Source: Aurantiochytrium sp. KH105 (taxonomy: Eukaryota > Sar > Bigyra > Thraustochytrida > Thraustochytriidae). From it: a stretch of 64,000 bases of DNA. Made by a program: the position numbers and the translations under genes. Under the pieces are notes generated by a model. The model was not told where the DNA came from. It worked only from the letters and a program-made list of their open reading frames with translations, and did not search any database. This document shows positions 4,781-38,600 of the stretch, piece after piece (position 1 is the first letter of the stretch; each line of letters starts with the position of its first letter). Location: positions 328,601 to 392,600 of the forward strand of contig BGKB01000014.1 of assembly GCA_003116975.1 (NCBI GenBank), read 5' to 3'.

Positions 4781-7537
4781 ATGGCCGATGACGAGAACCT
4801 CACCCCGTCGGGCTCAAATGACAGCAACGAGGCGGAGGCGAAGTCTGCAGCCGATGTGCAGACGGAGTCTTCAGCAGAGGCCGATGCACAGGCGGAATCA
4901 AAGAGCGAGACCGAGACCGATGTTGGGGACAACGAGGTGCAGGCAGCCTCTCATATCAACGCGAGCGACTCTAGGGCCAGTGAGAGCATTCGTGAAGAAA
5001 TGAGCATTGACAAGGACAAACTTAGTAGCGTCAGCACAAACGATAGCAAACTAATCGATGCGCAAAGTCTTCACGAAAGAGCCAAAAAAGGCTCGAACGA
5101 TGAAGACCAAGAGCGTTACTCGTTGGATGGTGGAGACAAAGAACTTGAAGAAGAAGCGCCTGGTTCGCCCGAAGCAAGCACAGAACCGAAGAGTACCGCT
5201 GCACCGCCCGATGTGGACAACATACGCAACGCGCTCGAGGGTTTTCGCCAAGAACGGAGGCGGAGCAGCATGAGTGTCATCAGCGATACGCCTTTGGTCG
5301 AAGCCTCTGCCCCAAGACACACGAGCTTCCGCGTAAGAGACCGTTCCCTACACTTTCGAGACCGCGATGGTAGAAGTGCCTCAAAAAATGGAGCTGATCA
5401 TCGGGGTCTCCTTGGCAAGCTGCCGTCCATGTCTTCTGCGGCCTCCTTTGTCATGCCAATGAACATGCAGACCTCATTCAAGATGCAACACTCATTCAAT
5501 ATGCAGCACTCATTCATCGGATCCAAGTCGAGAAAAAGAGCACGAGAGAGAGGGTCTTTGGAGCTTCTCGCAACTGAGCTCACCGACGGCGACGCTCCAA
5601 CGGTAGACGCCTCCATGAAACGAAAAGCTAGCTCCATTATGATGACCGTGGCGTCTTCGTCTGTGAAGCTAGGCCCAGGCGTAGGCGCCGTTGCTCCAAG
5701 TGAATCCGATCGCGCGGGGGCATCGCAAGTCGCCGCAGCAGCTGCCATAGCAGTGGGCGCAAACGTAAGCATTGGTCAAAGTCCAGCCGCGAAGGCTGGC
5801 ATGGGATCTACTTTAGGACCTGTTGCTTCCAGTGTATCCATGGCCGGTGGGGATAATAACCTGTTGGGGACCTCGTCCCGTCGCTCTCAAAACTCGGAAG
5901 CTGCGGGCCAACGAACGAGCATCTTGCAAGGCCCCAGAGCCTCATTTATGATTCGTGAAGATGCTTCAAACGCAAAGTACGAGGAGCTTCTACGAAAGCG
6001 CTCTGAAGCGATTCAAGACAAAAAAGCCAGCATTAAAGAGGCCTCGAAGAAAGAGCGCGCGATCTTCTTCGAGCCGCCTACAACGTCGCAAGATAATCAG
6101 CACATATTTCGCAGGCGGAGCGAAAATGCAGACACTCATAAGCTCATGCATGGACTGGGCACAGCTGATGAGGCGGAGCGCAAGGCCGAAATGAACCGCT
6201 TCACGGCACTGCAGCGTCGCGCCGCGCGTACAAACACATCGACAACGCCAGTTAGTTTCTATGACGTTGTTGAGACCGAGGCGGAGCCGCAGGCGAGCAA
6301 CACGGACTTTTCGGAGCGCCTCGCTGGCAGAATCACAGAGTCGTCTTGGTTCCAAAACTTTATTCTCTCTTGCATCATCTTCAACACAATTCTTAGTATC
6401 CTCTACACGGAGCCGGATATCGAGAAGAATTTCGGAAGTCTTATTGACCAGGCAGACAGCGTCTTTCTGACAATTTATCTCATGGAGATTTGGCTCAAGA
6501 TGATTTACCAAAAGGGAAGCTTTTGGCTCGACAACTGGAACATCTTTGACTTTTCGCTCATCTTTGTGTCGGTGCTCAGTACCTTTGTGCGCGATATTGG
6601 GACAGGGTCTTCGATCGACGGTCGTGTGCTTCGATTTCTTCGCGTGCTGCGTGCGTTCCGTACCTTGCGCATTTTGGGCGCCCTTCGCAAGTTGCAGGTC
6701 GTGGTGAACACTTTCCTAAAGAGTCTCATGGAGCTCACCAACATTGTGGTCATGATTCTGCTGCTCATTTTCATGTTTGCCATCATGGGTCTGCAGCTGT
6801 TTCAGCAGTATTCGCCCGAATACTTTGGCACGCTGACGCAGTCGGCCATGACGCTCTTTATTTGTATCACACAAGAGGGATGGGTCGAAATTACGGACGA
6901 GGTTTTCGAGTCAGTGGCCAACAGTGACGACGGCGTGGACCACTTTATGAGCGCTGCCATGCATGCATTCTTCATTATCTACATTACCATTGGCGCCTGG
7001 ACCATGATCAACCTCATTAGTGGTATCACCGTGACCAACTGGCAACTGTATGTGGACGAAATGAAGGCAATGGAGCGGGCCCGCTATCATGAAATTGAAA
7101 TGCCTTCCTTGCGCGATGATCAGGTGGCCAAAGACACCCGTCCCGTTTCGGCAAAGACCATCAAGCCAGAGGTTTGGGGCAAGCAGATCCCTCTTGCTTC
7201 GGCGTCAAGCATTGGCCGCATTTCTGTGCAAAAGCTGGAAAACTACATGCTTGTCCTCGACGCCCTCGAAAAGAACATGCAAGAGTACATGAATCTCAAG
7301 AAGAAGTTGCGCGAGCATCTTGACGTCATCAAATCTACAAATTCGATTCTCGACGTCTCCTTGTTGGACCGCGAGTCCTCCGACACTCGATTCGATGGCG
7401 ATGTGCTGTCGATTCAAATGATGCAGTCCAAGACGCCCCAAGATGACGATGTGGACATGCAGCGAACGCGGAACGCAGGGCGCCGCTCTAGCGCGCGCAG
7501 GTCCAGCGCCATCCTTCCTCGCCCCTTTATGAATTGA
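4781..7537 (+). CDS. Single-domain voltage-gated cation channel, CatSper/EukCat-like
   Basis: This 918-aa protein has one six-helix ion-transport domain (about 515-760), so four subunits should form the pore. The S4 voltage sensor starts at R615 (RVLRFLRVLRAFRTLRILG) with Arg every third residue. The pore loop carries T697-Q-E-G-W701, which fits the [T/S]-x-[D/E]-x-W pattern of CatSper subunits and related calcium/sodium channels. After S6 there is a coiled coil (~820-860), also common in CatSpers. The first ~510 residues are disordered, Ser/acidic-rich and contain Met/Phe repeats near 230-245 (MQTSFKMQHSFNMQHSFIG). I chose ATG 4781 (MADDENLTPSG); an in-frame ATG at 4619 would add only Lys/Ser-rich UTR-like sequence. 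Likely in the plasma or flagellar membrane. Alternative: a diatom-type EukCat channel. Confidence 0.85.
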   Translation: MADDENLTPSGSNDSNEAEAKSAADVQTESSAEADAQAESKSETETDVGDNEVQAASHINASDSRASESIREEMSIDKDKLSSVSTNDSKLIDAQSLHERAKKGSNDEDQERYSLDGGDKELEEEAPGSPEASTEPKSTAAPPDVDNIRNALEGFRQERRRSSMSVISDTPLVEASAPRHTSFRVRDRSLHFRDRDGRSASKNGADHRGLLGKLPSMSSAASFVMPMNMQTSFKMQHSFNMQHSFIGSKSRKRARERGSLELLATELTDGDAPTVDASMKRKASSIMMTVASSSVKLGPGVGAVAPSESDRAGASQVAAAAAIAVGANVSIGQSPAAKAGMGSTLGPVASSVSMAGGDNNLLGTSSRRSQNSEAAGQRTSILQGPRASFMIREDASNAKYEELLRKRSEAIQDKKASIKEASKKERAIFFEPPTTSQDNQHIFRRRSENADTHKLMHGLGTADEAERKAEMNRFTALQRRAARTNTSTTPVSFYDVVETEAEPQASNTDFSERLAGRITESSWFQNFILSCIIFNTILSILYTEPDIEKNFGSLIDQADSVFLTIYLMEIWLKMIYQKGSFWLDNWNIFDFSLIFVSVLSTFVRDIGTGSSIDGRVLRFLRVLRAFRTLRILGALRKLQVVVNTFLKSLMELTNIVVMILLLIFMFAIMGLQLFQQYSPEYFGTLTQSAMTLFICITQEGWVEITDEVFESVANSDDGVDHFMSAAMHAFFIIYITIGAWTMINLISGITVTNWQLYVDEMKAMERARYHEIEMPSLRDDQVAKDTRPVSAKTIKPEVWGKQIPLASASSIGRISVQKLENYMLVLDALEKNMQEYMNLKKKLREHLDVIKSTNSILDVSLLDRESSDTRFDGDVLSIQMMQSKTPQDDDVDMQRTRNAGRRSSARRSSAILPRPFMN

Positions 7538-7939
7538 TTAGAATAGAATCAGAAGCTGGTTTTCACTTGTTTCAGCTTGGCGTTCATTTTTTGGCTGTGC
7601 ACAAGAATCCGAGCTCGATGATTTACAGGTCTTGAAAGCCCATAATGCGGATTTTTGGAGATTCTTCAGTCTCTGCTTCACACGAAAGTAGGACGTGCAG
7701 TTTGCGATAGGAATCGAAAGGATAAAAGACGTCAAATGTCTTACTAATTTGCCTGCGCAGCACACACACAACACGTGCTAGAGTAAATTGAGCCCGCACC
7801 TTGAAGAATTAAGTATATGCTAGAAGATGCCCTGGCCCAACGAAAGGGTTAAAACGGCTGGGCGAGGTCTGATGATCGATCGCTCGCTCGCTCACGTGAA
7901 AGCCGCGCTGTGAATGAATGATCTGATCTCTCTTGCGTT
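7538..7939. other. Intergenic region, convergent 3' ends
   Basis: This holds the 3' ends of the channel gene and of the small mitochondrial-type gene. Composition is mixed and AT-richer than the flanking coding DNA. I see no gene and no clear repeat. Confidence 0.5.
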
Positions 7940-8266
7940 CTAACGCTCGAGCTCGTTGAGTCGCTTGCGCAGCGACTTTTGGCTGTCGAGCGTGTCGCGG
8001 CGAAGCTCCGCGAGAGACTGCTCGACGCTCTTGGTGCAGGCGTCAATGTCCTGGCTCAGCTGGTAGTAGCCGAGGCCGAGGCTGCCTGCGACGCCAAAGA
8101 GAAACCACGTGAACCTCGTGCTCATGCTCGGCCCCCTGCGCACGACGGGCGGCGTGTGAACGGGCTGCGCGGTCTTCACCTCCGTCGTGGACAGCGCCCT
8201 TCGGCCTGCAACGCGCGCCGCCGCGGCCGCCTGCCGCGCCGTCGACCTGGCCGCCATGCGCATCAT
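7940..8266 (-). CDS. Small single-pass protein with mitochondrial-type presequence, unknown function
   Basis: The predicted protein has 108 residues. Residues 1-26 are rich in Arg and Ala without acids (MMRMAARSTARQAAAAARVA), followed by RRALSTTE, which looks like a matrix presequence and cleavage region. One hydrophobic segment follows (residues ~52-70, FTWFLFGVAGSLGLGYYQL), then a C-terminal charged coiled coil with an abcdefg-like pattern (SVEQSLAELRRDTLDSQKSL). This suggests an inner-membrane protein exposing a short coiled coil. I do not recognise the family. The start was set at 8266, where the presequence begins; the frame continues upstream through GC-rich, Pro/Ala-rich sequence that looks non-coding. 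It is head-to-head with the synergin-like gene, 470 bp apart. Confidence 0.55.
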   Translation of the reverse strand: MMRMAARSTARQAAAAARVAGRRALSTTEVKTAQPVHTPPVVRRGPSMSTRFTWFLFGVAGSLGLGYYQLSQDIDACTKSVEQSLAELRRDTLDSQKSLRKRLNELER

Positions 8267-8736
8267 CCTCGCCGTATCTTGCTCTCCCGCCCCGGAAAAA
8301 AGGCCGTCCCAGCCGCGCGGCGTCCCGGCTCTGTCTCCGCCCGCCCCGCTCGCCCGCTCCGCCCGCGCTCCCGCTCGCTCGCTCGCGCGCGCGGCCGCAA
8401 ACCTCCCTGGACTCGGCTCTGCAGCCGCCGCGCAGCGTCGCGGCGCCGCAGCGGCAGCGCGGCAGGGAGAAGATCGCGAATCGGGGGCCCCGGGGACACC
8501 ACTTCCGGCCGCGGTCGAGGGCCCCGGGGGCCCCAATCGCGGCTCTTCGCGGCAGAGCTTCTTCTGCTTCTCGGTCTCGGTCGCGGACGCGGACTCCGTC
8601 CCGGTCTCCGTCCGCTGCGCGATCGCGGGAGGGGAGGGAGGGAGGGAGGGAAGGCGCAGAGCCGCAACCGTCGCGAGAGGGCGAGGCGAGGCGAGGCGAG
8701 GCGGAAAAGCTGGCGAGGGCGGCGGCGGAGTCGAAG
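8267..8736. promoter_or_regulatory. Divergent GC-rich spacer, probable bidirectional promoter
   Basis: It lies between the start of the small mitochondrial-type gene and the start of the synergin-like gene. It is strongly GC-rich and contains GGAGGGA runs at about 8629-8652 and GGCGA runs at about 8680-8703, just before the cluster of four ATG codons at 8737. No TATA box was recognised. Confidence 0.4.
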
Positions 8737-11700
8737 ATGATGATGATGCTGGGCGGCGCCAACGCGGAGACCGGCGGCGAGCGCGAGGCGCTCGACACGC
8801 TCTGGCGGCAGGCGACGCGGAACGGCAGCAGCGAGAAGCTCAGCGGACGCGCGGCGTTCGAGTTTTTTATGACGTGCGGAGTCCCGCGAGAGACGTTGCG
8901 AGACATCTGGGAAATGGCAGATACGAACAAGAGGCACTTTTTGGAGAGGCCTCAGTTTGACGTGGCAGTGCGACTCATTTGCGTCGCTGCGGCAGGTATG
9001 GACGTCAAGGCCGTGGGCACCTGCCCTGGAAAACCCTTGCCTCTGCCAGAGTCGTGGCAGTGGGCTGTACCCCCGCCTGCGGCACCAGCAGCAGCGCGCT
9101 CGCAAGAGCCGGCGCACTTGCAAACGCCCACCCAGGCTGTGAATCCGCGCTTTAAGAAGAACGATCGCGTCGCCCACACCCGGACCTCTGATGGTCTCGT
9201 GCGACGTGGAGTAGTTGTTGGTGTCCACACAGATGATGCCGTTAACGGCATCTACTATACTGTTCGTCTTGACGAAGGCAACCACGAGCTTCAGGCCGCA
9301 GAGCACAAGTTGCGTCACGAGGCTGAAGTTGACGCGGGGTCGACGCAGGCTCAACCCCAAGGCGCGCATCCCGCTCAGCAGGCGCCTGTCGCTCACGTAC
9401 AACAGACCGCAACGTCGGACTGGTCTCTTGACGCAGACACCATGCAGCGGTACCGCGTGGTGTACCAAAATGCAATTGCAAAGCAACCCAGCGGTCGTAT
9501 GGATTTGTACAATGCACAAAGCTTCTTTCAGCAGTCTGGACTCGACTCTGCATCCATCTCTAGGATTTTGCAGATGTGTGACCTGGACCGCGACCACGTC
9601 CTCAGCGAGCTCGAGTTCTGTCTCGCCTTTCATCTTGCAGTTGGTGCGAGCAAGCGAGGCAAGCCGCTGCCCAATCAGCTTCCGCCAGAGCTCTATCAGC
9701 TCTACATGCAATTTATGCAGACGCCACAACATGTTCAAGGTGAGTTGACCAGCATGATGATTTGACCACGACAATAGTCTCCACTAACCGCTGCAAAGAG
9801 CCACAGCCCCTCGAGCTTCCAGAGAATGGTAGCCATCTTGTCCCTCCTCCACCGATTGAAAACGCTACGGACTCGCTCGCACGCACAGCCTTCGAAGACG
9901 CTTCGAACGACAATGAGAGAAAGGACACTTCTATTGCTGAAGCGTTCGCCTTCAATGGCGATGCTGGCGTGGCCTCGACCGAGCCTGCTGCTGTCGACAT
10001 CGATCATTTTGACGGAATGGACAAAGCCGAAGAGGAGAGTGACAAAGACGAGTCTTTTCAAGAGAACGTGGTGGGAGCACAGTCGCAGACTAATAAAGGT
10101 GGCGAGATGGAGGCATCGCTGCGAAAACCCGACGGTGAGGGTGACGGAAACGTTTCTGCAGATGCTGATGATGTCTGGGGCGATTTTGATGCAAACACTG
10201 CGCCAACCGGGGCAGCTAAAACGGGTGGGATCGCGGAGAACGACAAAGAAGCTGCCTCCTCTGTTGCTCACGAGGCAAAAACAGATGAGGAAGATATTTG
10301 GGCCGGACTTGGTCCTGCCAATGTGGACACTGGAACAGCTGAAAGGATTGAGCTCGGACAGAGTGACCAAGATGTTCCTTCTGCTGCTCCCGCTAATAGA
10401 AATGCCAAAGCCGATGAGGAAGAAGACGTGGAAGAAGAAGGAGAAGACTGGGGCGATTTCGATGCAAATACCGCGCCAAATGCGGCAGCTGAGACGGATA
10501 TGATCGCGGAGAACGACAAAGACGCTGCCTCCACTGTTGCTTGCGAGGCGAAAACAGATGAAGAAGATGTTTGGGCCGGACTTGACCCTGCCAATGTGGG
10601 CACTGAAGCACCTGCAACAACGGAGCTCGGACAGAGTGACCAAGATACTCTTCCTGCTGCTCCCGCTGATAGTCATGGCAAAGGTGATGAGAAGGAAGAA
10701 GAAGAAGATTGGGGCGACTTTGATGGAAGCACTGCACCGACCGTGCCAGCTGAAATGGGCGAGGGCGAGATCGAGGGCGGCGAGATCGGGGAAAACGATC
10801 AAGACGCTGTCTCTTCCGCTGCTCATGAGGTCAGTAGCAAGGAGAATGACGTCTGGTCCGGAGTTGGGCCTGCGCATGCGGACACCGAAGCACCTACAAC
10901 AACCGAGCTTGAACAGAGTGCCCAAGATTCTCTTTCTGCTGCTCCCTCCGACGGAGTTGCCAAAGAAAGCGATGATGTCGATGCCTGGGGCGACTTTGAT
11001 GATGCAATCCAGGGGAGCACTGAAGATCAGATGGAGGAGCGCGAATCCTCGAATTCACAGATAATGTCGGGTCGGGGCGAATTTGACAACAATGGAGAAG
11101 TAGAAGCAGGAGAACAAGAAAATGATGACGAGCGGAGCAGCGCCATCCCAATCGATGATCAGACATCTCAACCTTTGGAAAATGGTGTCTCCGAGTCTGC
11201 TCGCCAATGGCAAGATTTGTTGGAGCAGGAAGATTTCGCAACCCTATGTATGCGATTGAGGCAGGAACTTGAGGCCGAATCATTACAGGAGCCAAGCCAG
11301 ATCAGTCCTGCAGTCACGTTCAAGACTCTCTGCGAGGGTACACCTGGGCTTGCGAAAGCGTACCCCAATGGCCTTGGAGCAGAAAAGGACCAGATTGCAA
11401 ACGCGCTACAGACGGCGACGTACCCCGAAGCCCTACAAGCCGCTGAACTTGCACGTGAGGCACAACAGCAGATTCAGGCCCGTGCGCGTCTTGCAAATCA
11501 CGTCTCTCGTGGCGGCGCGATCGTGATCCATCAGTGGTCGGACATTCTTGCTGCCGTGGCTGACGAAACGCGCCGAGCTTGCGCGTTGTTGCAAGGCTTG
11601 CACTCATTTGAGGGGCCTAACACGAGTGCTGTAGAGAATGCCCTTGCCTCCGATAGCATGCGTGCGTACCTCGAGGATGTTGAAAGAATGAATGCCGTGG

Positions 11701-12044
11701 CCTCACGCATCACTGCCGCAGCGCGCGCCAGTCTTGTAGAAGAGCGCCTCGAGCAGGAGATTGCGGAGTGGGTCGACCTTTGCACCGCTCTGCAAGCTCA
11801 GAGGGGTCCCGGAGCTGGATATGTTGACAATGTGGAGACCTTGATTGTGGATCTTTTGGGAAGCCTTGCCTTTGAGCCGGAAAAGGAGTATACACGCTGC
11901 GGACTGACGCTCATGCAACTGCAGCCCGCAGAGGTGTGCCACTTTAGTGGATCAAGTTTCCATAGAGAAGCGCTCAATCTCTGGCTCAACAGAGTCGATT
12001 TGGCGGCCCCTTCAGTCCCCAAACATTACAGTAACTCTATTTAG
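8737..12044 (+). CDS. Synergin-gamma/aftiphilin-like clathrin adaptor accessory protein with EH domains
   Basis: Two exons, 8737-9739 and 9799-12044, give 1082 aa. EH domain 1 is at ~14-85 and EH domain 2 at ~228-312 (LQMCDLDRDHVLSELEFCLA). Between them is a short basic/beta module (RFKKNDRVAH...). An acidic region repeats a WGDFD motif at W461, W552, W639 and W731, alternating with W(A/S)G(L/V) motifs. WxDF-type motifs are the known ligands of AP-1 gamma-ear and GGA ear domains. The C-terminus, from C1035 (RCGLTLMQLQPAE...FHREALNLWLNRVD), matches the conserved tail I know from synergin-gamma and aftiphilin. Role: trans-Golgi/endosomal clathrin traffic with AP-1. The start is the first of four consecutive ATGs. 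Without splicing, the first exon would stop at 9765 right after EH2. Confidence 0.87.
9740..9798 (+). other. Intron of the synergin-like gene
   Basis: A 59-nt phase-1 intron: donor AAG|GTGAGT, branch-like CTAAC at 9783-9787, acceptor GCAAAG|AG. Splicing joins codon G+AG (Glu335) and puts the two long frames in register. The other nearby AG, at 9800, would break the frame. Confidence 0.9.
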
Positions 12045-12061
12045 TCAGATTAGATACGGTA

Positions 12062-26300: not shown

Positions 26301-28886
26301 AGCCCAGATTGGCGCGGATTCTGGCTCCCCAGAGTCGCTGCTTCCAAGCGCAGAAGTTAATGCGGCACTATCTTCTGAGCTGTCATCCGATTCTGCAGAT
26401 TCCCCATCATAGCGGGGTTTCCCTCCAGCTGCGTTTTGGGAGCTGTGCTGAAAGGGCTGCATGGACGTGACAGGTTCCACCTGTGCAATGACGCCAAGGA
26501 ACCTACGTATTGGGTCTTGTAAGGTCTCTGTAATCCAAATTTCAATCTCGCCACGCGGAAGAATAGGATGCGAAGGCAAAAGGTCTCTTGGGCTTTCCGT
26601 TTTTGTGAGATGATGATACGCAGAAACGATCGGAACCGGGGTTGACGTGAGTCCTGCGCGTTCACTTTGTGTTGGGTGTTGTTCTTGCTGCTTTGCAACG
26701 GTTGCGGTTGTATCAGAAAATGAGTTCATAGTCGACGCCGAATCGGCTCTCGATAGATCATCGTCCTGATATTGAGAGCGAGAGTCGTGGTCTTCACTGT
26801 CCGCATCCAAGAAGGGAATCGAGGGTGGCTCCCACCCATTTGCGTGCGAGGAGGGTTCCGCTGCAGCAAGTCGTGCGCCATGTGCGCCGTTTTTGTACTG
26901 CGCGGCAAGAAAGCCCGCGGGCATTCTCGTTCCTCGAAGATAGCCATATGTTTGGGCGCTTGTTTCATCGGGGTCGGCCGTGTCGGCAGGATTTGCTTGC
27001 ACAGCATCATCTTGCTCGATATCTACTAGCTCCCGCACTGGAAGAGATGTGTGACGGCTGGAGATCGTCTTGCTAGGTCTAGTGGCCTTTTTCCCTGAGC
27101 TGAGAGCCGATGGCTTCAAAGTACCTTGAAAAGGAGGTGGATACGGAGAGTAGCCAAGCTCGGCCATATCCTGGAGATCTGGGATCGCTTTGAGCATTGA
27201 GGGAGTGCATACTGGTATAAGTTCCGTGCCTGGACGAAAAAGCATTGGTGGGACGGTCGTGCAGTTTTCTGGAACTTCCGGCAGTTCTGGAATTCGTAAG
27301 GCAACGCGCACAAGCGCTCGCTCCGAGGTCGGCACGGGCATTGCCATCGATTCAATCCCACAAATTCGATCAGCGAGACCATGCGTTCGCGAGGCAAAGA
27401 CTGGCGCGTGTGCCTCGTGTGACGCTGTGCTCGATGCAGTGGCTGCCTCGTCGCTCTTCTGCGCAAAGAGCTGCACCACAGTTCCAGGTCGTTGGAGCAC
27501 GGAGCGAACCGCTTCGACGCGACGTCTTACTTCAACTTTCAGTTTGGCATACTCTTGGTCCGCGGCGGCAAGAGCTTTCGCAAAGCCCTCGTACCGTGAC
27601 GCATGAGGACCGAGAAGGGCACCAAAGCCAGTGACACACTCTTTTCGAAGCTCAGCGGCACGAAAGCGAACTTCGAGAGCGTCCATGCGCGAGAAGACAC
27701 TGGCCCATATTCCTAGAAAGGTTAGGATTGCCTTTTCAACACGACGATCCTCTTTATAGTCGTGCAGAAGGTCTTGCATGAGAGGCACAAAGAGAGCGCA
27801 AAATTGCAAAAGCCCGAGATCAACATCGAGCGTGTCACTGCATGCAAAGTCTCCCTCGAAGAAGGCATCGGCGTTTTCAGCATCAACAAAGTCAAAGTCG
27901 CTCGCATTGTCGGCTTCGGCATTTTGCGAGACCAAGAGATCGGATTCGGCCTCGAGCATCTTCAAGAGGTTGGCTACAACCAACGGCGACAATTGTTCTC
28001 GGGACGCAAGTAGCTCATAGGCAACAAAGAGAATGCCGGCGCGACAGCGAAGACGGGCCTCTGGTTGCTCGAATTGAATGACTGGTCCGAGTAAGCTAGT
28101 CACAACAGCCACAAGCTGCTGTGTAGGTCGAGTACCGGACCGGAAACACCAATATCGAGTCTCATCAGCTAGAGGAAATGCTGAAGCATTGAATGCTCGG
28201 GCGATAAACTCCACGACGAAGATGCGAATCCTCTTGCGCTGGCTCTGGTCATCTGAAATAGCCGAGCTCCCAGGAAGTCGAGCCTTGCTAACACGACGAA
28301 ACATGCCTACTGCCGCTGCCGCAGCTGCATAGTTGCTGATTGTTAGTGTAGACCCAAGAACCTTGGCAGCGTGCAGTCTAATGTCGATGATTTCATCTCC
28401 AACGACTGTATCAAGCAGTGCCGTCACAAAGCCCTGAGCATCTCGTGGCGAAAGGACATCCCACATGGGAAACTTGCGGAAGAGGCCTCCGATGTTGATA
28501 ATAGCGGCCTTGCGCAAGGTTGGCTCGGGATGGGAAATGAGGTCCACAAATTGTCTCCATGCCCGTTGTGCCCCGCTAAAATCCTGTGAGGCAAGCAAAG
28601 ATGCCAGAATAAGCTCGGCGCGATAGGCTCTAGAAATTTCTTTCTCCAGCGAAGCGCTCTCGAAAAGTCTTCGTGTGCGCTTTTTGAGTTCTAGAGTCCC
28701 CACGTCAGTTGATGTAAACGTTGTCGATTGCAACTGCAAGTCATCATCATCTTCGCTCGATCTATGAGAAAGGCGGACGCTCGTCTCTGAGAAAGATAGT
28801 ACTTCTTCGTTTTCTTGCTGGCTATCTCTGCTCGCCGTGTCCCTGCTCGCGACGGCCTCCGTCGCCTCCTCGGGCTGGTCCTCCAT
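14370..28886 (-). CDS. Giant HYDIN-like multi-ASH (MSP-fold) axonemal protein, 4838 aa
   Basis: A single uninterrupted 14.5-kb frame. Residues ~45-500 are HEAT/armadillo-like helices. Residues ~1130-1150 form an acidic tract (EEGEEDEDEEDDDDDLILG). From ~1200 to ~4700 there are many tandem Ig-like ASH/MSP repeats with the usual pattern of hydrophobic strands, 'PxxxxxxxG' turns and 'F.P' endings, for example TLEPEESAQVTISFHATTVG. Such arrays are typical of HYDIN, CFAP47, CFAP65, DLEC1 and related central-pair or ciliary proteins. Size and repeat number favour HYDIN, but I saw neither the adenylate-kinase-like insert of animal HYDIN nor a calponin-homology domain, so the exact orthologue is open. 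Likely role: structural projection in the flagellar axoneme. The C-terminus ends in Gly/Asp/His-rich sequence. Start MEDQPEEATEAV at 28886; no better upstream Met. Confidence 0.86.
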   Translation of the reverse strand: MEDQPEEATEAVASRDTASRDSQQENEEVLSFSETSVRLSHRSSEDDDDLQLQSTTFTSTDVGTLELKKRTRRLFESASLEKEISRAYRAELILASLLASQDFSGAQRAWRQFVDLISHPEPTLRKAAIINIGGLFRKFPMWDVLSPRDAQGFVTALLDTVVGDEIIDIRLHAAKVLGSTLTISNYAAAAAAVGMFRRVSKARLPGSSAISDDQSQRKRIRIFVVEFIARAFNASAFPLADETRYWCFRSGTRPTQQLVAVVTSLLGPVIQFEQPEARLRCRAGILFVAYELLASREQLSPLVVANLLKMLEAESDLLVSQNAEADNASDFDFVDAENADAFFEGDFACSDTLDVDLGLLQFCALFVPLMQDLLHDYKEDRRVEKAILTFLGIWASVFSRMDALEVRFRAAELRKECVTGFGALLGPHASRYEGFAKALAAADQEYAKLKVEVRRRVEAVRSVLQRPGTVVQLFAQKSDEAATASSTASHEAHAPVFASRTHGLADRICGIESMAMPVPTSERALVRVALRIPELPEVPENCTTVPPMLFRPGTELIPVCTPSMLKAIPDLQDMAELGYSPYPPPFQGTLKPSALSSGKKATRPSKTISSRHTSLPVRELVDIEQDDAVQANPADTADPDETSAQTYGYLRGTRMPAGFLAAQYKNGAHGARLAAAEPSSHANGWEPPSIPFLDADSEDHDSRSQYQDDDLSRADSASTMNSFSDTTATVAKQQEQHPTQSERAGLTSTPVPIVSAYHHLTKTESPRDLLPSHPILPRGEIEIWITETLQDPIRRFLGVIAQVEPVTSMQPFQHSSQNAAGGKPRYDGESAESDDSSEDSAALTSALGSSDSGEPESAPIWAEDDRVEIRFRTSNGDIFAATVMIAEALEDDQDLEMWGSDRDESGAEIARSNPVPAALCGDGKVLFAPPCNFPPIPIVYKKDSGLPLYGAALPLRKRPVACTSDGIFAFAGDDRVTQFERPLVYSNSGHPFYRLEGGMLPLPAGYTSTGVPFYTMASVILHPFFSSVATRKIMARQALRASQRKLQKRTSKLIRKLQVAAAFMQRGSKASLARASVADDDEQDEETKAHSEGISTHRAETKGGTAQEGLGLVSDEKKDTKVADGPNNEDESEEGEEDEDEEDDDDDLILGTFVGGDTESFSQLSSESSERGTSSTSLMAALYSADPSDDPANGRKTVPLLFDRAVIEFTHTTTEETCKVKVQTKFAPKRDLDVFVMLDPPEVFEVVPAVLRFSPAVTSISLDIIFRPQRHTEKSSSVQGEIRVQEFSGQVLGTAELRGFCGPAFEIKSMMRRPLWIGPGQQTTFIVAVSNVTPKQLDVAIKIIANTDDVEDDTYETDENLAFAADVDSLSIFKFQEAFVPMHFVPGHFTGLHEASLCVTSNTGETQYLPLIGHCGAPIVVRGLTRQEQAIYAADPTDKTKAPVTLTRKRRSTLRAMDLEAPPTLSTLVDALERSPSGTAGGGATTKASNTTGPGRRNMNAFVKKPWAQVRKLMGGLGGFRVQRRVPYDRPQDRPQENVPFLEELARTAVNYSVVGKSLQAADPKLTLRYRLQEHDDNSDGDSDDESSVDSGPEWVNFDAHAKLDVDFGLVDPFQVIKRKFIIENMSSESSLVSLTLRGCPWIKLPNLLEVPARNQAIVDLELSGPGDWTGAFDFVIEITSMILRAPLQVRLIGFVGRALEFPLAPRTFFGISAPSGKPVTLSLPVVNHSPYELHFLLLPLGTHFTAAISSDPSTKTKIPALGCAWIEVSFSPGSFRGIYRSVLGVRVLHPVSITYAAAGPCGLLELVGVVAAPSGPQIPGGFDLNRIAALEAWLQETSPSSFVGPAGGSLDFARASGSVSQHTSELCRLCDQDLSGENRLSLCAEEGEPFTWHVVGRSSENLPFVRTHLGDYKGTSSKVVVEASVIAEDDSKLSVFASRGLVAESLGPSRALIKPENSVSDYPLRFGLVGVKHHLTVDNFPSHVSGILVCQEGPISFNILPREGRTPVVNFGNCLAGASSRRWVTIRNWSSKPVRYVLDLGDMEDRFGYAPVQVAGQDQEGHLAPFAACFLPLTFKPESEGQLREMACVQAFSDETYGHVQGRDAKREHAQEWAEKHVWATEIALVGNALVEAIHGLPEADELFDFGAVPVDSMTTRIWEPRNKGTTVQKLTFNVASPFTVSPALVTLEPEESAQVTISFHATTVGSYLQELTCMANGKPMVFPLRGIVGELKASTSAGPSGLISYGTRKTDTISSAFVTITNKGSLPLELSRVLYIGSPDLAWQLRKFQILFAGILPSYTETGQKVHIIERKHAWAILRRRLAHALRITRNKSVEAGMSSLTSQKIRMSMSRKGVHSRSSFKNSTLVYKVSGRAGLDSGFPPSQASKLQSSKRLQPLQQPSLNHKLARLQGSKILPASSMRSHEGRPGQMSMKRASPQIVSQQGSSGYLLGQSSHLLHPDKAAALMNAHADAELERFCKNGNTLIPIVPEIPSLRVFRPSAAIAKSVGSDAVDPEDTLAGRAKASTLPELPPLKPGDSYLFRIDFEGKLCVPLSVPVKLHFGPWQVSDMRMDLGLGDAEITNVKDCSQVLRFEGNAVRRLDLKPDVLAFKPTPAREHFPPDVLPEGNLLHIVATNASPHTLTFNCARCNNLSFEIPDKMIVVQPGSSVTVPIRFRPIHANTDYHANLALEDMFGRRNIRLSGRGAAAKVEAVTDVVRFPAIKIGKSATAKFILRNAGLFKSQIHISCNSEYFTLGQESFILGASGGTEPTIVTCTLPASARHSLRDTFAVEASLEVRWQLVPSGNWTTWLIPVSAEIGTVILEADAVECDLGLVTLNCASQASFRLRNLGTAPCEWTALHDMINAASGDCLNVELSASSGEIGAGQDTVLTIQFEPRTCDLLELVIPIESDGGNLTLRICGTVVAPQLIVPEDLDMDFGVILLEKRMQKGFKVENVGRIAVDVRAQLFIHNHTLEGSRKAKASRIVSMWGSSQEGETPTKVVQSAIRGRITELRHETSADREEALPDPDQVDFVRGACFALGPVEAHLEPGESVTTVLEAFGDPSLPDVQSEAVNVIGSWVITAQQLVDVEWKGRLRARIGKLDANVEVPALLEGSRPREISAQDGALYSYFGVCMVNCEFLRRAACELVNNGTVNIEFLIQPEPRDMSDGDDSQEPVFEIQPRAGQLAPGERISIDVVFLAQTEGFYRLVTDVRFRPTGSAASSGGERLEQVVFCATSGVPRLVCLVGELKYGRCQIDGKPIVQTFQLQSAGNCPVSWSAKVVKGAEHFLLECFEGIISPQDDVLVPVKFSPRGACMPEDEDLLACTGLLLVEWAGQTPYEIELCGEGARGRLKWSVEGETPEEGIQFGTQPVHAGCHPAWRSVHLQNEGQLGLDVVVRADLDNSVFAICAREDERRQRDMEMQIERRFAQAELQQTLSGGALQVSRLMTQQALKMNSAARSLGDQNSKIFENEPVADRDMEDLSRLSSTDSKSTFTRKFHLTPGDVTVLHVGFAPIVERTHHGELEIGIAGVSGCEQHILVEGSGGEFRISAEQAMQIDSVGVGFTTLDTLTLRNTGKLHSQVEVTVDPPEVGQQMTFTIEEVLVHADDAHTRTRPMYETEMMHQKAHEAGIHHLQFLLHGESTVRLLVGFFPTHVGQLSGALLIRPLHEGLGDAEDLLATSSRVRAKETAGTRRQNIVGPFGLVIPFSIDAVNNRLRLLRTSNVAMGRLACGQTCTDIRLLANGTDMEIDFSVRFSRQDAAWSVSPEIGTLGPGTQVELHITFTTPREGESSGGKRDNAIDVDDWHEVEIEVLNETTGARDVCIRGYGAAGFPALQTNLDGQNRVDFGACQLNSAVSVPIVFRNVGTGMLHVQPRIEYESKEDHEQVLFIGWERLNSTHRDRSLPAQLDMAVGRSPEHLTYAKSLGDLLSHTGDGTGEGIDQPIFTGFGVLEPGAELRMMITFSPRFRGEVAAKLVIETNAERGRGGGASEVSLTGAGHSFDLHMDLLTNRIHFGTWMLGQSHTIKVPLRRRGDENVPVKLLFDKVRYERAWPPPFGCGGILTVGEGTTGKAKPEPLQHELGHVRLSSAEVDVSGSESTEENVDEVELELSVPSAWLDNKLVPKRESIEALRTLINAQPAPPANSTVSLFLLRPGSLPPYQIDVMFSFKFPRIAVELSEPVPSDGEKDRILIRDLGEIGRPGESVLAGLSEKDRSHVGAVIRFGSVLTRQAVAKSFVISSDSPLRIPFKAQIEVQKHANSTENYNAFFSLSRKEGVLEAEEPMAIKLRCNFSIPFDATHNPALVRIQFLHGALPEMIIPIDVRTMDHVFSAVHLAPVKFVEPVFVGRAEKGILRLANVTGDPVEANITFGDAAFSLGGGLVNPVKIPAQEEPMEIAVHFLPSEDAAYDSSIDIQVDKMVFSVGISGIGSRAGLKLKPTNCVDFGFVGAMLRGDETLAVRNTSALPLLVEVDCAGIGEAWLDARPRHFTLKARSSQMVQLEFLPTKEASYDGALVVRAFEAESDIEEKDSSMKMGSGALRRRQLVEETVRVAGVGGRVSLAFPKELNFGRISTHIRQAAYLELANKGDVAMDVRLVARDVDGVAVVKFVPSELALLPGQSVDVNVLLTLQLDQEQSFWIDILPVVADAQDFGVTASNPYSWSLRVAAFGDKIDLSEEMQRILAEERLPKLAFRSDDVEDEHLRHVLRPVVQLPQASFAHLLRPVEPSLDAASVQFQNALARPAPLVSEVPQHATRPKWHENRAPLKLERSSRESAAQALSTSYTFSNARWKALFAGGGNDDGDGDLDHDNSGSRGGSGPHDENGGIHANHARRK

Positions 28887-29361
28887 TGCAGGACCAGGTC
28901 GCTCAAGTTGGCGGCTGCGATTGAGCTTTTCGATCTACGCGTCAAACGGCACCAACGCGCTGAGGCAAGTGAGTCCGAAAGGCCGCGGCGCTCACGTGAG
29001 ACACGATGTCTGAGGTGCACCAGGCGCAACGCGGGTCCCTTGCGCCGCACGCCGCAACGCTTGCGCCGCAAGGCTCAGCGGCTAGGTCTCGCCGCGACCA
29101 ACGTATAAGTCGGGTATGCAAGCCCAGGTTTTATGGGACGCGTGACCCAATGTGCGCAACCCAAATTCATATCTTGTAGAGCGACGTTGCTGACGCAAAG
29201 TCAGGTCGTAAAAGTGATTCCCTTGATGTGTGAAAACAAGGCTTGCAGCGGTCGGTGTATTGGTTCTCTACCCAAAGTGGCAGACTGTCTGAGCCTAACG
29301 AGAAGAACATGTACAGCAGTTTCGTACAATTCATTACTCCATTATTTGAACATTTTTTTTT
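28887..29361. promoter_or_regulatory. Upstream region of the HYDIN-like gene and 3' UTR of the IQ/WW gene
   Basis: This 475-bp spacer separates two minus-strand genes. The part near the HYDIN-like ATG is GC-rich and has two copies of CTTGCGCCGCA, at 29039-29049 and 29060-29070 (21 bp apart), 150-185 bp upstream of the start. The part near 29340 is T-rich, as expected for a 3' UTR. I looked for an RFX X-box pair and found only a poor match. Confidence 0.4.
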
Positions 29362-32300
29362 CTACCATGGTTTTTTCCAAGTCGTTTCACCAGTCTGTTT
29401 TTGCACGTAATAGGATGCTTGGTCCGCAGCGGAATAGTATTCGTCCCAAAGATCATGGGCTGACTTGAGCGCGTCAGGCTTATCCCAGACAATTTCTTCC
29501 GTGGTTTTGGTGAATGCGTTCCAGCAGTAATAATATGGACGACCTGATTCCTCGTCAAAAGCCTCAAACCATTGGCGATTCGCTTCGTTGTCAAGAGCTT
29601 GCTGCCGCTCGTCTTCTGATAGCTCTAAGGACTTCCCTTGAACGGCGTCAGGAACCAGTTCATCAGGACGCTCGTAGGTCCACTCGCCCGTGACGGAGCT
29701 CACCCAATAAGGTTGATTCGACTCAAAGTCCCAGCACTCGGTGTATTCAAAGCCAAGTTCTTCGACGGGTCGCTCCCACGTTGCTTCCTGGGTATCTCGA
29801 TGAACGTAAAAGGGTCGATTCAGCGCCGGATGCAGATACATTTTCCACAGCGGCTCGTCGGGGTCAGGACCAAGCACTTCAGGCCGGTCCCACGTTGAGA
29901 TGCCCAGATGTACATTTTCGTAGTACTTCGCGCCAGATTCGGAGTCAACATGCACTGACCAGTCGTTCTCGAGTCGACGCTGCTTTTCTTGCTCACGCTC
30001 ATAAAGCATGAACTTGCGTTCATGCATTTCCTCGCGAAGCATGCACCTTCGAGCTTCTCGCTCGGATTCTGCTTCGGCATAAGCACTCGGTTTTTGGAAA
30101 GTTGTCTCGAACGACTCTTTGTGAAAGTAGAAATGCACTTCGTTCCAAGAATCCCAGTGCCTGCTCCAAATGCACTCAAGGCCGTCATCGTCGTCATCGT
30201 CTTCGTTATTGTCGACATATCGGCGATCGCTATCGTCAATTTGCCCGAGGTCCTGGTTGGCCGCGGCCGCCGTTCGGCCAATTCGAACAAGATACGCTGC
30301 GTACGCGCCCTGATTCCTTCGCCAGGCACTCTGAATCTTCAAGGCCGCACGCTCTCGCGCAACGTGAAGGCGATAAGCAGTTTGGATCTTAACTGCGCAG
30401 CGGTAGCGGCCACGACGCTCCGCAATGTTTACTGCAGCGATAAAACCCTTCTTTTCATGAACCGCGACTCGAACTCGATGGCCTCGCTCCGCAGTCTGCA
30501 CGCGTACAGCTGCGGCTCGTTTTTGCTGATACGCTCGTCTCAAAATGAAGCATCGCACGAGCGCTTGGATGCGCGTGGCTGCAGCGTGTTTTTGCCTCAG
30601 GCTAGAGCGGACAAAGTGACCCCGGGCTGAAGCTTGAATGCGTATCGCGGCTCGTCTTTTTGTCAGAAAAGAAGCTTGCATGCGCCAGCGGCGCGCTGCG
30701 GTTTGTATGGAGATAGCTGCTCCTCGCTGCTCGAGAAACCAGCCTCGCTCATCCCATGCGCGAAGGACGCTCTGAATCTTGACAATTGCTTCACGCTGAC
30801 ACCTGTATTGCCTGCGCGCGAGGCGTCCTCGTTGGTGCGCTTGCAGGCGCGTGCACGCATCTCGGTAGCGCAAAAAGGACAGGCGGCACAAGAACCCGCG
30901 CGCAGCTGTCTGAATCTGTATCGCTGCACGTCGGCGATGCGCTGCAAGCTTGCGAGCACGATGGCCTCGAAAGAGAGCTTGGATGACTCTGGCTTTGCGG
31001 CTTCGCTTCACTCGAAGTCTCCAGCGCATGCCTGCCATCATGAGAGCATTCTGGCGACGCGATATTTTGTATTTTTCAGCAAGATCAATGATGCGCACGA
31101 TACGCCGCCGCCACGCGCGTTGTACTCGTACGGCTGCTGCGATGTGATCTCGAGTCCAGTCGACAGCAAAGATGACTCCCACAGAGCTTTGCAGATGGGC
31201 CTTTTCATGATCTCGCAGTACAGAGTGAATCATGCGCATGCAGGCTTTGCAGAATTTGCCCTGGCACGCACGACAGTAGAACCCGCACACTTCATCATTG
31301 CATTCGTCGCACAATGGCATTCCTTGCAGTCGCTCGCGGCGCTCGCGCAAAGCGCTCAGCATGCAATGAGCTGCGTGCACGCGAACAGCGCGCTGTATTA
31401 CCATGGCAGCACACCGTTTCTCTGCATATGATACTCGCGTCTGCACACATCGCACAAAGGTCTGGACGCGAATGGCTCCACCTTTGCGCGCCGTGTACCA
31501 TTTGTGAAACCTCCAAGCACGTTGGATTGAGCGGGCAGCGTTGAAAATGCGTCGCAGCTTAGCGCGGTAGGCTCGTTGGATCCTCCGAGCTGCGAGATCG
31601 CGTTGGCGATTTCGAAGAGCAATTTGAATGGCAAACGCCTTGTAGAAGCGTTGAATCACTCGTGCACAGCGTGTGCGCTCTCTTTGAATAAGAAAGTATG
31701 CAAGCTGCGCGTGTCGAGCACGCCAGCGAGCCTGGATTCGTATGGCACAACGCTCGCGTTTCGCGCGTCGAAGACGATTGGCTGCGTGTCGCGCCTGTCG
31801 TCCTCGCACCATGCCTTGAATTGTGATTGCTGCATCATGGCGTTCTTCTTGCTGGACACGCCGGAAATGGGCGAGGACTTGGCCCCGAAAACCTCGCCAT
31901 CGAGTTTGTACGCGCAGGGCTGCGCGCTCAAGGCGCAAATGAGCTAATCGAGACTTGGCCGCCACAATCCTCATGAACCCGGCAATGCGTCTGGCCGCTC
32001 GATCCTGGCGTCGAGCTAGAGCGGCCTGACGAGCAATCCCAAAGGCAAGGTGATTCTTCCACGCATGTTGGATCATGAAGGCTGAATCCTCAATGTGCCT
32101 TTGCTGTTGCGCAATTTGAAGCCGGTGTCGCGCTTGCCGTTTCCGCACGGCACACTGAATTGTCGTCGCAGCCATCTCACGTTGCCTTTCGTAGTGACAG
32201 TGTGTGACTCTTTGCTTGGCTCTGACTTTTCTTATGAGACAAGCTATGACAGTCTGTGCGCGTGCATCGCGGAGTCTTCTCATGGTCTGACGTACATGAT

Positions 32301-33099
32301 GGCCCCGATATGCGCGTTGAATCTGAATTGCCGCGGCTGTACGTCCTCGCGAGACGAGATCGCATTTGTGTTCGTATATGTTACGGAAGGCGGGCCCGAG
32401 CCGCTGCATTCGCCACGCGCGGAGAATAACACGCACCCGGGCGGTCATGAATTTGCGCTCGTAAATTTCGAGGCGGTTTTGTAGTCTTTTCTCCACGCGA
32501 TCTACTTCGTTGTTACTTTGCAACGCAGTCGGGTCTGCAGCGTAGAAACCAGGGTCGTGGCTTGACTCTTTAAAGAGACCAAGCCTTTCGACAATTGTTA
32601 CTCGTATTTTGCGTTCACCGCGGTCGTAAGCAGCTTGCATACCACGATGGGAGCATCGCGACGTGGCGAAGAGAGTCCAAACCTCTTGGTTGACGTCGTT
32701 GACGCTCCATGTCGAGCCATGATAGACCAATCCTCTGGTCGGCATCTCGACACGGTAGATGCCGGCGCAGAGCGCTGTGGCGGATGACTCAATAATTCGC
32801 GCTTGCTCAATAAGTTCCTGCATTGACAATTGATGTCTTCGCGATGCTATTCGAGGTTCCTTTACGATTGCTCGTTTCGCGAGCGAGGTTCGGGCCATCG
32901 CAAGCTTGTAGTCCGCAGCAAGCGCCTGCGATGAGCGAAAGCGTTTGGCTTCTTGCTTCGAGGGTGAAGCGACTGATGACGGAGCAGCACCGCGCTGATC
33001 ATCGTATCTGGCAGTAAACGACTGGGGCCGGGGTCGTTTCCCTCGTCGCGCACGTTTACTCTTCCCGCTCGGGTTGCCTGCCGCTGCGCGAGGGCCCAT
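29362..33099 (-). CDS. IQ-motif-rich protein with B-box-like zinc finger and C-terminal WW domains
   Basis: The protein has 1245 aa in one exon. A basic N-terminus (SKRARRGKRPRP) and a unique region (1-230) are followed by a long run of IQ motifs (AAIQIQRAYRGH, AALRVQTRWRGFRGQ and others), the usual calmodulin or light-chain sites. The run is interrupted at ~593-635 by a Cys/His cluster (CDECNDEVCGFYCRACQGKFC plus H residues) that reads as a B-box-type zinc finger. IQs resume to ~950. From ~975 there are about six WW-like units with W...Y...W-x-x-P (for example ISTWDRPEVL, ATWERPVEEL, TTWKKPW), which bind Pro-rich partners. Likely a calmodulin-binding cytoskeletal, centriolar or flagellar scaffold; the function is inferred. 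It is head-to-head with the EFCAB9-like gene. No myosin or kinesin motor is present. Confidence 0.86.
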   Translation of the reverse strand: MGPRAAAGNPSGKSKRARRGKRPRPQSFTARYDDQRGAAPSSVASPSKQEAKRFRSSQALAADYKLAMARTSLAKRAIVKEPRIASRRHQLSMQELIEQARIIESSATALCAGIYRVEMPTRGLVYHGSTWSVNDVNQEVWTLFATSRCSHRGMQAAYDRGERKIRVTIVERLGLFKESSHDPGFYAADPTALQSNNEVDRVEKRLQNRLEIYERKFMTARVRVILRAWRMQRLGPAFRNIYEHKCDLVSRGRTAAAIQIQRAYRGHHVRQTMRRLRDARAQTVIACLIRKVRAKQRVTHCHYERQREMAATTIQCAVRKRQARHRLQIAQQQRHIEDSAFMIQHAWKNHLAFGIARQAALARRQDRAARRIAGFMRIVAAKSRLAHLRLERAALRVQTRWRGFRGQVLAHFRRVQQEERHDAAITIQGMVRGRQARHAANRLRRAKRERCAIRIQARWRARHAQLAYFLIQRERTRCARVIQRFYKAFAIQIALRNRQRDLAARRIQRAYRAKLRRIFNAARSIQRAWRFHKWYTARKGGAIRVQTFVRCVQTRVSYAEKRCAAMVIQRAVRVHAAHCMLSALRERRERLQGMPLCDECNDEVCGFYCRACQGKFCKACMRMIHSVLRDHEKAHLQSSVGVIFAVDWTRDHIAAAVRVQRAWRRRIVRIIDLAEKYKISRRQNALMMAGMRWRLRVKRSRKARVIQALFRGHRARKLAAHRRRAAIQIQTAARGFLCRLSFLRYRDACTRLQAHQRGRLARRQYRCQREAIVKIQSVLRAWDERGWFLEQRGAAISIQTAARRWRMQASFLTKRRAAIRIQASARGHFVRSSLRQKHAAATRIQALVRCFILRRAYQQKRAAAVRVQTAERGHRVRVAVHEKKGFIAAVNIAERRGRYRCAVKIQTAYRLHVARERAALKIQSAWRRNQGAYAAYLVRIGRTAAAANQDLGQIDDSDRRYVDNNEDDDDDDGLECIWSRHWDSWNEVHFYFHKESFETTFQKPSAYAEAESEREARRCMLREEMHERKFMLYEREQEKQRRLENDWSVHVDSESGAKYYENVHLGISTWDRPEVLGPDPDEPLWKMYLHPALNRPFYVHRDTQEATWERPVEELGFEYTECWDFESNQPYWVSSVTGEWTYERPDELVPDAVQGKSLELSEDERQQALDNEANRQWFEAFDEESGRPYYYCWNAFTKTTEEIVWDKPDALKSAHDLWDEYYSAADQASYYVQKQTGETTWKKPW

Positions 33100-33711
33100 C
33101 TCGCCCCAAGCAAGCTATGCCGAGTCTGCCGTCGTCGTCGGTAGCGATCCGTAGAGCGGTAAGATCATCCATCGATGGTCATCAGAGCTTACTTAGCACT
33201 GCATATTGAGAAAGACCGTTCTTGACAAGCAGACCATCATTCGACGTGAAAAGAACACGTGACTTGCCTATTCTCAGCTCACTTGAAAGTCATTGACGAA
33301 GTACTTTTTTTTTTCTTCACGAAAGCAGCGCCTCGTGAGACCGCCACTACATAAGTATCTGTAAGTTTGAATTTTCTGCTCCTTGTTTCTTGACTGACTC
33401 GGACTGTGAAGCAAGGCCAGAAGAGCGCTCTCAGGCGCGCAACCCATTTTACATTTTCAACGGACAAGTGAGACGACCTTCCTGGTGACCTCTTTTCTCC
33501 GCTTGATCCTAGCAACAACGGTGACCTCGATGAGAGCAAAGGGACGACGAGGCCGCCGTAAATAGTAACTCTTGGGCCACACGGGCGGGCGCGTCTAGTA
33601 CCTTTGATTTCGTCGTCGCCGTCGCGCAGAGTGTCGCGCGCGGAGTGCGTGAAGAGGGCCAGGCGTCAGCTACGACATTTTTCGAAGAGGAAGGGGAAGA
33701 GGAGGAGTATC
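33100..33711. promoter_or_regulatory. Divergent spacer between the IQ/WW gene and the EFCAB9-like gene
   Basis: About 610 bp between two outward-facing starts. Composition is mixed with a T10-type run near 33306-33315. If the two genes share a flagellar role, this could be a shared promoter, but no specific element was recognised. Confidence 0.4.
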
Positions 33712-34478
33712 ATGTTGGTTCGCAGCGAGCTACTAAAGACGTTGCATTTAGACCCGCGGCAGCTGCTGCTTACCGCGAGGAGTTGTCAGGTCATTGGCGA
33801 GTTCTTTCGAATTCTGGACGTTGCTAGCCAGGTGCGTGCGCGCGAAGCGTTGCAAGAAGAAAAGAAGAGGAGAAGTATGAACTGCGCGAGAGTACAATTT
33901 GCGAAGGGCTAACCTCTTTCTCTTTCTTTCTCTTCTTTTTGTTGGGTACATTTATTCATTTGCACGCCAATTCCAGGGCGAATTGGATGACCTTGCCTTT
34001 ACAACTTTTCTTCAGGAAATATCTGATCTTAGCGAAAAAGAGGCTTACAAGGTGTTTGACATTTTCGATGTCGATGGCAGTGGAACCATTGGGTTTGACG
34101 AGTTCTACCTGATCGTTTGCATCTTAATTGCCATCAAAGTAAGTGTCCGGGCGAGAATCTCGTCATCAACGTCTGGATGCGTGCAGAAACTAACGATCTC
34201 ATTTTACGCAGGACAACCAGCAAAAGCAATTTCTTTGGAATCACTCCCGCACATGCTTTGAACTTATCGACACGGATGGGAGCAACAGCGTCTCAAGAAC
34301 TGAGTTCGAGACTTTTGCATTCATGTTCAATATCAGCAAACGCGCATCAAAGGATATCTTTTCTGACTTTGACAAAGATCGAAGCGAGGAACTTGACTAC
34401 GAGGAGTTTCGAATGTTTACAATGGCCTGTCTCGACAAACAATTCGAAATTGACCAGCGAAATTTTAACAAACACTAA
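33712..34478 (+). CDS. EFCAB9: EFCAB9-like EF-hand protein (CatSper-associated calcium sensor family)
   Basis: Three exons (33712-33831, 33977-34138, 34212-34478), both introns phase 0, encode 182 aa. Three canonical EF-hand loops are visible: D71-E82 (DVDGSGTIGFDE), D114-E125 (DTDGSNSVSRTE) and D148-E159 (DKDRSEELDYEE, with Glu in place of the usual Gly at position 6). Length, loop spacing and the flanking stretches EFFRILDV, EFYLIVCILIA, NHSRTCFELID and FAFMFNI follow vertebrate EFCAB9 as I remember it. EFCAB9 gates the sperm channel CatSper in response to calcium and pH. Neither splicing nor orthology has been tested here. An upstream in-frame Met (33604) would add 36 basic residues and seems less likely. 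Its stop is 77 bp from the convergent neighbour's stop. Confidence 0.85.
33832..33976 (+). other. Intron 1 of the EFCAB9-like gene
   Basis: A 145-nt phase-0 intron with donor CAG|GTGCGT and acceptor TTCCAG|GG preceded by a T/C-rich stretch. Removing it joins the helix ending ILDVASQ to GELDDLAF in one frame. Confidence 0.85.
34139..34211 (+). other. Intron 2 of the EFCAB9-like gene
   Basis: A 73-nt phase-0 intron with donor AAA|GTAAGT and acceptor TTTTACGCAG|GA. Splicing joins the first EF-hand region to the second without breaking the frame. Confidence 0.9.
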
Positions 34479-38221: not shown

Positions 38222-38600
38222 CTCGCATCCCCGCCGCGGCCGCCCGGGCGCGGCGGTGACGGGCCCCACCAGCCCGCGCGGCGNCGAGCGCGCGCGGCGG
38301 GCGCGGCGCGCGCGACCGAGGCCAGCCGCGCAGCCGCTTTCGCGCGCGGGCCCGGCGGCGGCGCGGCGCGGTCGGTGGTTACTTCGTTCGCCGGAACGGG
38401 ATCTGCGCCACGGATCTGCGGCCAAGTTCAAAAGTTCTGATGTTCTGCGCGCGAGGCGCGGTCTCGTCGCGCAGCAGAGCCCGAACCGCGGCGGCCGCGG
38501 ACCCCGAGACGCGCCTCGAAGCCGCGCCCCGGGGCGCGCGCGCGGGCGCGCGGGCGGGCGCGCGGGCGGGCGCGCGGGCGGGCGGGCGCGCGGCGGGCGC
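38222..38600. promoter_or_regulatory. Short bidirectional promoter region with unresolved base and GC repeat
   Basis: This 379-bp spacer lies between outward-facing starts and is extremely GC-rich. Position 38284 is N. A (GCGCGCGGGCGG)n-type tract at about 38527-38600 runs right up to the protease ATG. Such composition is hard to sequence, so the exact base count here may be wrong. Confidence 0.5.

Follow-up and report, generated by a model that had tools for sequence, protein, structure and literature searches.

Does a stretch of thraustochytrid DNA carry parts of the calcium system that in animals serves the sperm flagellum? The stretch in question (the window) comprises 64,000 nucleotides of Aurantiochytrium sp. 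KH105, contig BGKB01000014.1, and the initial annotation had proposed that a CatSper-like channel and an EFCAB9-like sensor lying in one 30-kb region of it represent a conserved flagellar calcium module outside animals. Our analysis supports with good confidence that the two genes are the orthologs of CatSper4 and EFCAB9 in this protist and belong to a larger set of genes for the CatSper complex in its genome. The predicted set consists of at least eight members: pore subunits 1-4, CATSPERB, CATSPERG, one CATSPERE-like subunit and EFCAB9. The assembly measures 76 Mb, and the genes examined occur in it twice, as two haplotypes (the window belongs to contig C14, and its other haplotype to contig C76). 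The number eight is a lower bound; zeta, theta, tau, eta, SLCO6C1 and ARMH2 lay outside the search.

The window channel holds a single Ion_trans domain (135.7 bits) and the pore segment FICITQEGW, so that the one-domain channel with a T-x-E-x-W pore described at the outset stands; the filter TQEGW fits the T-x-[D/E]-x-W form of CatSper4. Among solved structures, its best one-domain match was mouse CatSper4 (112.1 bits, in one stretch, 580-907, covering S1-S6 and the tail), while the next one-domain chains reached at most 88.8 bits (among the best 60 of 151 matches) and the best single Cav domain 75.7 bits (among the domain tables listed). Four-domain Cav/Nav chains head the match list because their four domain scores sum. 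The C-terminal tail could be aligned with that of mouse CatSper4, and with pore and tail alone CatSper4 again ranked first of 40 (53.0 bits). The filter of mouse CatSper4 is TQDGW, with aspartate in place of the glutamate found here, and the window filter has the glycine that PMC10120453 assigns to CatSper4. A coiled coil at the C-terminus was judged by eye only. On these comparisons the window channel is best read as a putative CatSper4.

The spliced EF-hand protein (three exons, GT-AG introns, 182 residues) matched two mouse EFCAB9 sequences among the solved chains with 136.3 and 135.1 bits, versus 37.9 bits for the next family, a calmodulin-calcineurin fusion (220 matched sequences). It shares 61 of 168 residues with mouse EFCAB9 without a gap, and the EF-hand_6 profile marked three stretches in it. 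Searching its own genome returned 18 matches, six of which are the three exons in the two haplotypes and the other 12 of which scored at most 40.7 bits; each haplotype has one EFCAB9 gene. Both by family membership and by its three EF-hands the protein is a predicted EFCAB9. Centrin, calmodulin and calcineurin B, the first and last of which the initial annotation had named as groupings that would refute its reading, are ruled out as its identity by the same difference in score.

The calcium-binding loops add a new detail. Scored with our own residue table at loop positions 1, 3, 5, 9 and 12, all three loops passed here, while those of mouse EFCAB9 failed at 3, 2 and 1 of the five positions. 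A stricter PROSITE-type pattern matched two of the three loops here but no loop of the mouse stretch. The mammalian protein resembles the present one in its ungapped 168-residue match and its three EF-hands; the difference is in the loops, which in mouse look degenerate, whereas all three appear canonical here.

Comparison of the haplotypes (as plain counts of changes, no formal test being applied) gave 18 synonymous and one non-synonymous change in the EFCAB9 coding sequence, while its introns differed at 20 of 218 bases. In the channel, S1-S6 carried 14 synonymous and no non-synonymous changes, the N-terminal extension 62 and 28, and the C-terminus 8 and 3, respectively. Upstream of the ATG at 4781, on the other hand, there were 5 synonymous and 36 non-synonymous differences and 12 gapped codons. 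We take this ATG as the channel start because the change pattern shifts there, and the sequence 5' of it looks non-coding. Both the channel and EFCAB9 look like real genes, the changes between haplotypes being mostly synonymous.

The initial annotation had also suggested looking for other CatSper subunits in the same genome, and six further candidate genes were found besides the window pair. A search with the channel region gave three nearest other one-domain types, each on two contigs, and one haplotype of each was matched against solved structures. Their best one-domain matches were CatSper1 for the C44/C141 channel (128.9 bits), CatSper2 for C146/C42 (223.4 bits, including regions ahead of S1 and part of the C-terminus) and CatSper3 for C13/C188 (149.8 bits), with the filters TLDDW (C44), TLDQW (C146) and TLDSW (C13). 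Among the CatSpers, PMC10120453 assigns the aspartate seen in the C44 filter to CatSper1. Best matches thus point to four distinct pore subunits, of which the tree backs CatSper2 alone (C146 paired with mouse CatSper2 at 100/99), and CatSper1 is the weakest assignment.

The auxiliary subunits came from a profile search of the genome: CATSPERB_C matched on C6 and C15 (146.3 and 144.4 bits), CATSPERD-E_C on C31 and C93 (120.3 and 120.0 bits), and CATSPERG_C on C147 and C96 (36.8 bits each, and 47.1 in another search). None of these three profiles matched in any of 14 control genomes, but the named controls are bacteria and archaea, so that this says little beyond specificity. Among solved chains, mouse beta was the sole match of the partial CATSPERB protein (92.7 bits) and mouse gamma that of the CATSPERG protein (55 bits), while the delta/epsilon-type protein, the only gene of its type found, was closer to epsilon (102) than to delta (82). 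The set resembles the mouse complex (PDB 7eeb, 9ubw) in that CatSper1-4, beta, gamma, epsilon and EFCAB9 are each matched here. It differs from it in the single delta/epsilon-type gene, in the glutamate of the CatSper4-like filter and in the CatSper1-like open reading frame (ORF), in which S1 is preceded by only ~100 residues with no histidine-rich stretch among them, although an upstream exon is possible. All these genes have open frames in both haplotypes, with the best matches given above, and the two window genes carry an excess of synonymous changes.

Several observations weigh against so complete an assignment: i) In a tree of 14 rows, which held one animal CatSper (mouse CatSper2) and no CatSper4 row and in which 4 of 11 inner branches were firm, the window channel grouped with C13, CatSper2 and two-domain TPC-like repeats at only 83/85; this group stood apart from Cav-type domains at 92/88, which was not counted as firm, and the window channel is not firmly placed; ii) In a blastp comparison with ten reference domains, the window channel, C44 and C13 (three of the four) were nearest to a two-domain repeat of their own genome, the window channel scoring 86.7 to that repeat versus 83.6 to mouse CatSper2; iii) With pore and tail alone, Cav1.1 was a close second to CatSper4 (49.0 bits, summed over domains); iv) The lead of CatSper1 for C44 was modest (128.9 versus 113.8 bits for a one-domain "Ion transport protein", 5hvx); v) According to PMC10120453, CatSper2, 3 and 4 have a glycine that is missing from the C146 and C13 filters, and the same source associates a small non-glycine residue at that position with sodium permeability; vi) Further one-domain-looking ORFs (e.g., C3/C176 and C186/C95) exist outside the four channels compared; vii) The propeller models PF15020 (CATSPERD) and PF15064 (CATSPERG) had no match here nor in the controls, which does not imply absence; viii) Among the annotated calcium channels of Phytophthora zoospore membranes, none was similar to CatSper2 (PMC12223298). 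The filter finding for C146 and C13 slightly lowered our confidence; it is tempered by the filter of the mouse CatSper2 chain, TLDHW, which also lacks glycine. Of the searches and trees that the initial annotation had called for, the former favored CatSper4 and EFCAB9 (112.1 and 136.3 bits) and the latter did not place the channel firmly (83/85).

If the orthologs work as their relatives do, CatSper1-4 would form one heterotetrameric Ca2+ channel, in which the filters TLDDW, TLDQW, TLDSW and TQEGW come together, and this channel would sit in the flagellar membrane of the zoospore. Beta, gamma and epsilon would cap it on the outer side, while EFCAB9 beneath the pore would sense Ca2+, gate the channel and thereby steer the flagellar beat. 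EFCAB9 probably contacts the channel tails directly or via a partner other than zeta, because zeta is reported from mammals only (PMC5362262). The proposed module outside animals holds as to its content, already in print in outline, while its flagellar use is a prediction and the linkage is not supported as a sign of it (see below). An alternative is that the same orthologs have their role elsewhere in the cell, such as in settling or in osmotic Ca2+ signaling of vegetative cells. A single-celled organism may well employ the channel differently, but CatSper genes are gained and lost together with Efcab9 (PMC12638846) and CatSper is located in the sperm flagellum (PMC9205950), and although both points apply here by analogy only, we regard a non-flagellar role as unlikely.

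The two window genes are 26.2 kb apart (from channel stop to EFCAB9 ATG), and the HYDIN-like and IQ-motif genes do lie between them as first described, where the distance was given as about 26 kb (Table 1). They might belong to a selected cluster of flagellar genes made up of CatSper4, the HYDIN-like gene, the IQ-rich gene and EFCAB9. Within 30 kb there are indeed three or four genes with a possible flagellar or Ca2+-related role, and an illustrative binomial chance of at least three is 0.01-0.08 (assuming 16-20 genes, 3-5% of them flagellar). However, none of the remaining six complex genes is on C14 or C76, so that only this pair of the eight shares a contig, and the other domain-bearing neighbors are unrelated (glycosyltransferase, Ulp1 protease, cold-shock, prenyltransferase, tetraspanin, kinase and SpoU domains). 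If genes are placed uniformly and the haploid genome is assumed to measure 38 Mb, the chance of lying within 29 kb is 0.0015 for a given pair, but for some pair it is 0.023 among six genes (15 pairs) and 0.042 among eight (28 pairs), before allowing for freedom of choice. The gene order is the same on C76 (with ~2.1 kb of C76 unread between the compared pieces), where the long pieces are 94.0, 95.7 and 96.6% identical to C14 and two short extra alignments 78.2 and 84.3%; this is not independent evidence of linkage because C76 is the other haplotype. Selection for a cluster is decidedly improbable, and the closeness of CatSper4 and EFCAB9 is probably accidental, as the initial annotation had allowed. 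Linkage as proof of a module is dismissed, given the 2-4% chance of some close pair.

Table 1. Features of the window discussed in the text (positions count from the first letter of the window).
Feature	Position	Strand	Remarks
CatSper4-like channel, one-domain, voltage-gated (putative)	4781-7537	+	918 aa; long N-terminal extension; pore TQEGW
Channel ORF	4610-7537	+	ATG at 4781
Channel S1-S6	~6320-7054	+	
Channel tail alignable with CatSper4	to ~7330	+	
EH-domain ORF	8113-9765	+	52 bits; weak EF-hand matches
HYDIN-like giant ORF	14370-28934	-	4854 aa; HYDIN/CFAP65/ASH Ig-like axonemal-type repeats; neighbor, not channel part
IQ/WW/B-box-like ORF	29362-33114	-	1250 aa stop to stop; IQ, WW; B-box below cut-off
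EFCAB9 exon 1	33712-33831	+	ATG 33712
EFCAB9 exon 2	33977-34138	+	first EF loop DVDGSGTIGFDE
EFCAB9 exon 3	34212-34478	+	EF loops DTDGSNSVSRTE and DKDRSEELDYEE; stop 34476-34478
ORF without Pfam match	34556-38977	-	1473 aa (stop to stop)

Among the neighbors, the HYDIN-like ORF showed 233 synonymous and 110 non-synonymous changes between haplotypes in the 10-kb piece compared. The IQ/WW ORF lies head to head (divergent) with EFCAB9, with its first in-frame ATG, at 33099, as putative start; its two haplotypes differ by 75 synonymous and 46 non-synonymous changes, with 26 codons gapped. Its four matches among solved structures were three myosin-5A chains and one Pre-mRNA-processing factor 40 homolog A (in the WW region), and this gene has no proven link to the channel. 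The EH-domain ORF between the channel and the HYDIN-like gene is possibly Ca2+-related. The ORF without a Pfam match is convergent with EFCAB9 and ends 77 bases past the EFCAB9 stop; its translation has one X, and the window apparently has an ambiguous base there.

Elsewhere in the genome, Ion_trans gave 151 matches over both haplotypes, many of them in single frames of 1700-3300 aa and others in two-domain ORFs (928 and 981 aa), which makes a rich set of voltage-gated channels; C3/C176, C186/C95 and others have one listed match. A search for a sperm-type Na+/H+ exchanger (NHE) gave 20 matches, of which one was followed and from which no inference is drawn: a 1218-aa exchanger ORF at C58:53700-57600, with a cyclic-nucleotide domain below cut-off, may be sperm-type NHE or SOS1-type, two types that resemble each other. 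PfaD-type enzymes (710.6 and 682.3 bits) sit within long open frames of 2081/2152 and 1845/1857 aa, with 3 of the 14 controls matched and one over the cut-off. We take them to resemble the polyunsaturated fatty acid synthase subunits of thraustochytrids, which is consistent with such an organism and not proof of it; they favored a thraustochytrid over an oomycete, the origin first considered.

The channel could instead be a EukCat or another one-domain protist channel that merely resembles CatSper, with EFCAB9 present for some other reason. We know of no auxiliary subunits of EukCat, and to our knowledge beta-, gamma- and epsilon-like proteins have no role outside CatSper. EukCats are likewise one-domain protist channels, they are present in stramenopiles (PMC10120453), and the weak tree placement of the window channel (83/85) would suit one. 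Against this, the alignment with the CatSper4 tail extends past the superfamily domain, four channels match CatSper1-4 one to one, and beta-, gamma- and epsilon-like genes share the genome. Published descriptions also set EukCats apart from the window channel: it has a glycine where EukCatB1, EukCatC and OsEukCatA1 have small non-glycine "beacon" residues, by description only (PMC10120453; elsewhere the same source says that EukCatA has no residue at the beacon position). Taken together, we consider a EukCat very unlikely, and keep to CatSper4 and EFCAB9 orthologs as the preferred reading. Within that reading it is no better than a long shot that EFCAB9 here is a true three-site Ca2+ sensor working without zeta and docked on an IQ-bearing protein, possibly the divergent IQ/WW protein, in a pair that would be the ancestral counterpart of the mammalian EFCAB9-zeta unit.

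An ancient CatSper is not a new idea, and our findings agree with its published origin before animals. In 2014 Cai et al. reportedly treated CatSper in unicellular eukaryotes, Aurantiochytrium limacinum among them; the kind of organism is probably the same and the gene set much alike. EFCAB9 itself was described as a CatSper subunit in 2019. An earlier dating had placed the origin of CatSper in early metazoans (PMC2572835). According to PMC5362262, CatSpere is of the same ancient origin as CatSpers1-4, b and g, while delta came later and zeta occurs in mammals only; its screen for auxiliary subunits over 17 eukaryotes included Aurantiochytrium limacinum. CatSper is kept in stramenopiles and further single-cell eukaryotes (PMC10120453), and Efcab9 clusters with CatSper genes across 1952 eukaryotes (PMC12638846); not every flagellated fungus keeps CatSper (PMC13358043). 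Multiple CatSper homologs of two oomycetes (PMC4820453) are similar to the present case as stramenopile channels compared to CatSper, and differ in that the passages concerned mention no auxiliary subunits or EFCAB9. EFCAB9 is widely conserved in animals and binds zeta via an IQ-like motif (PMC8147001), and loss of EFCAB9-zeta disrupts the channel rows (PMC9205950).

What the window offers is a large predicted CatSper gene set, including EFCAB9, in a thraustochytrid; the linkage adds little. Thraustochytrids are culturable and make flagellated zoospores. A protist system of this kind could test the role of each CatSper subunit, which would be of value because heterologous functional expression of CatSper was lacking as of 2017 (PMC5362262). 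The most worthwhile lead is an EFCAB9 with three intact-looking Ca2+ loops outside the reported range of zeta: canonical EF loops together with a zeta reported from mammals only would point to Ca2+ sensing as the original state of EFCAB9 and to the mammalian arrangement as a derived one.

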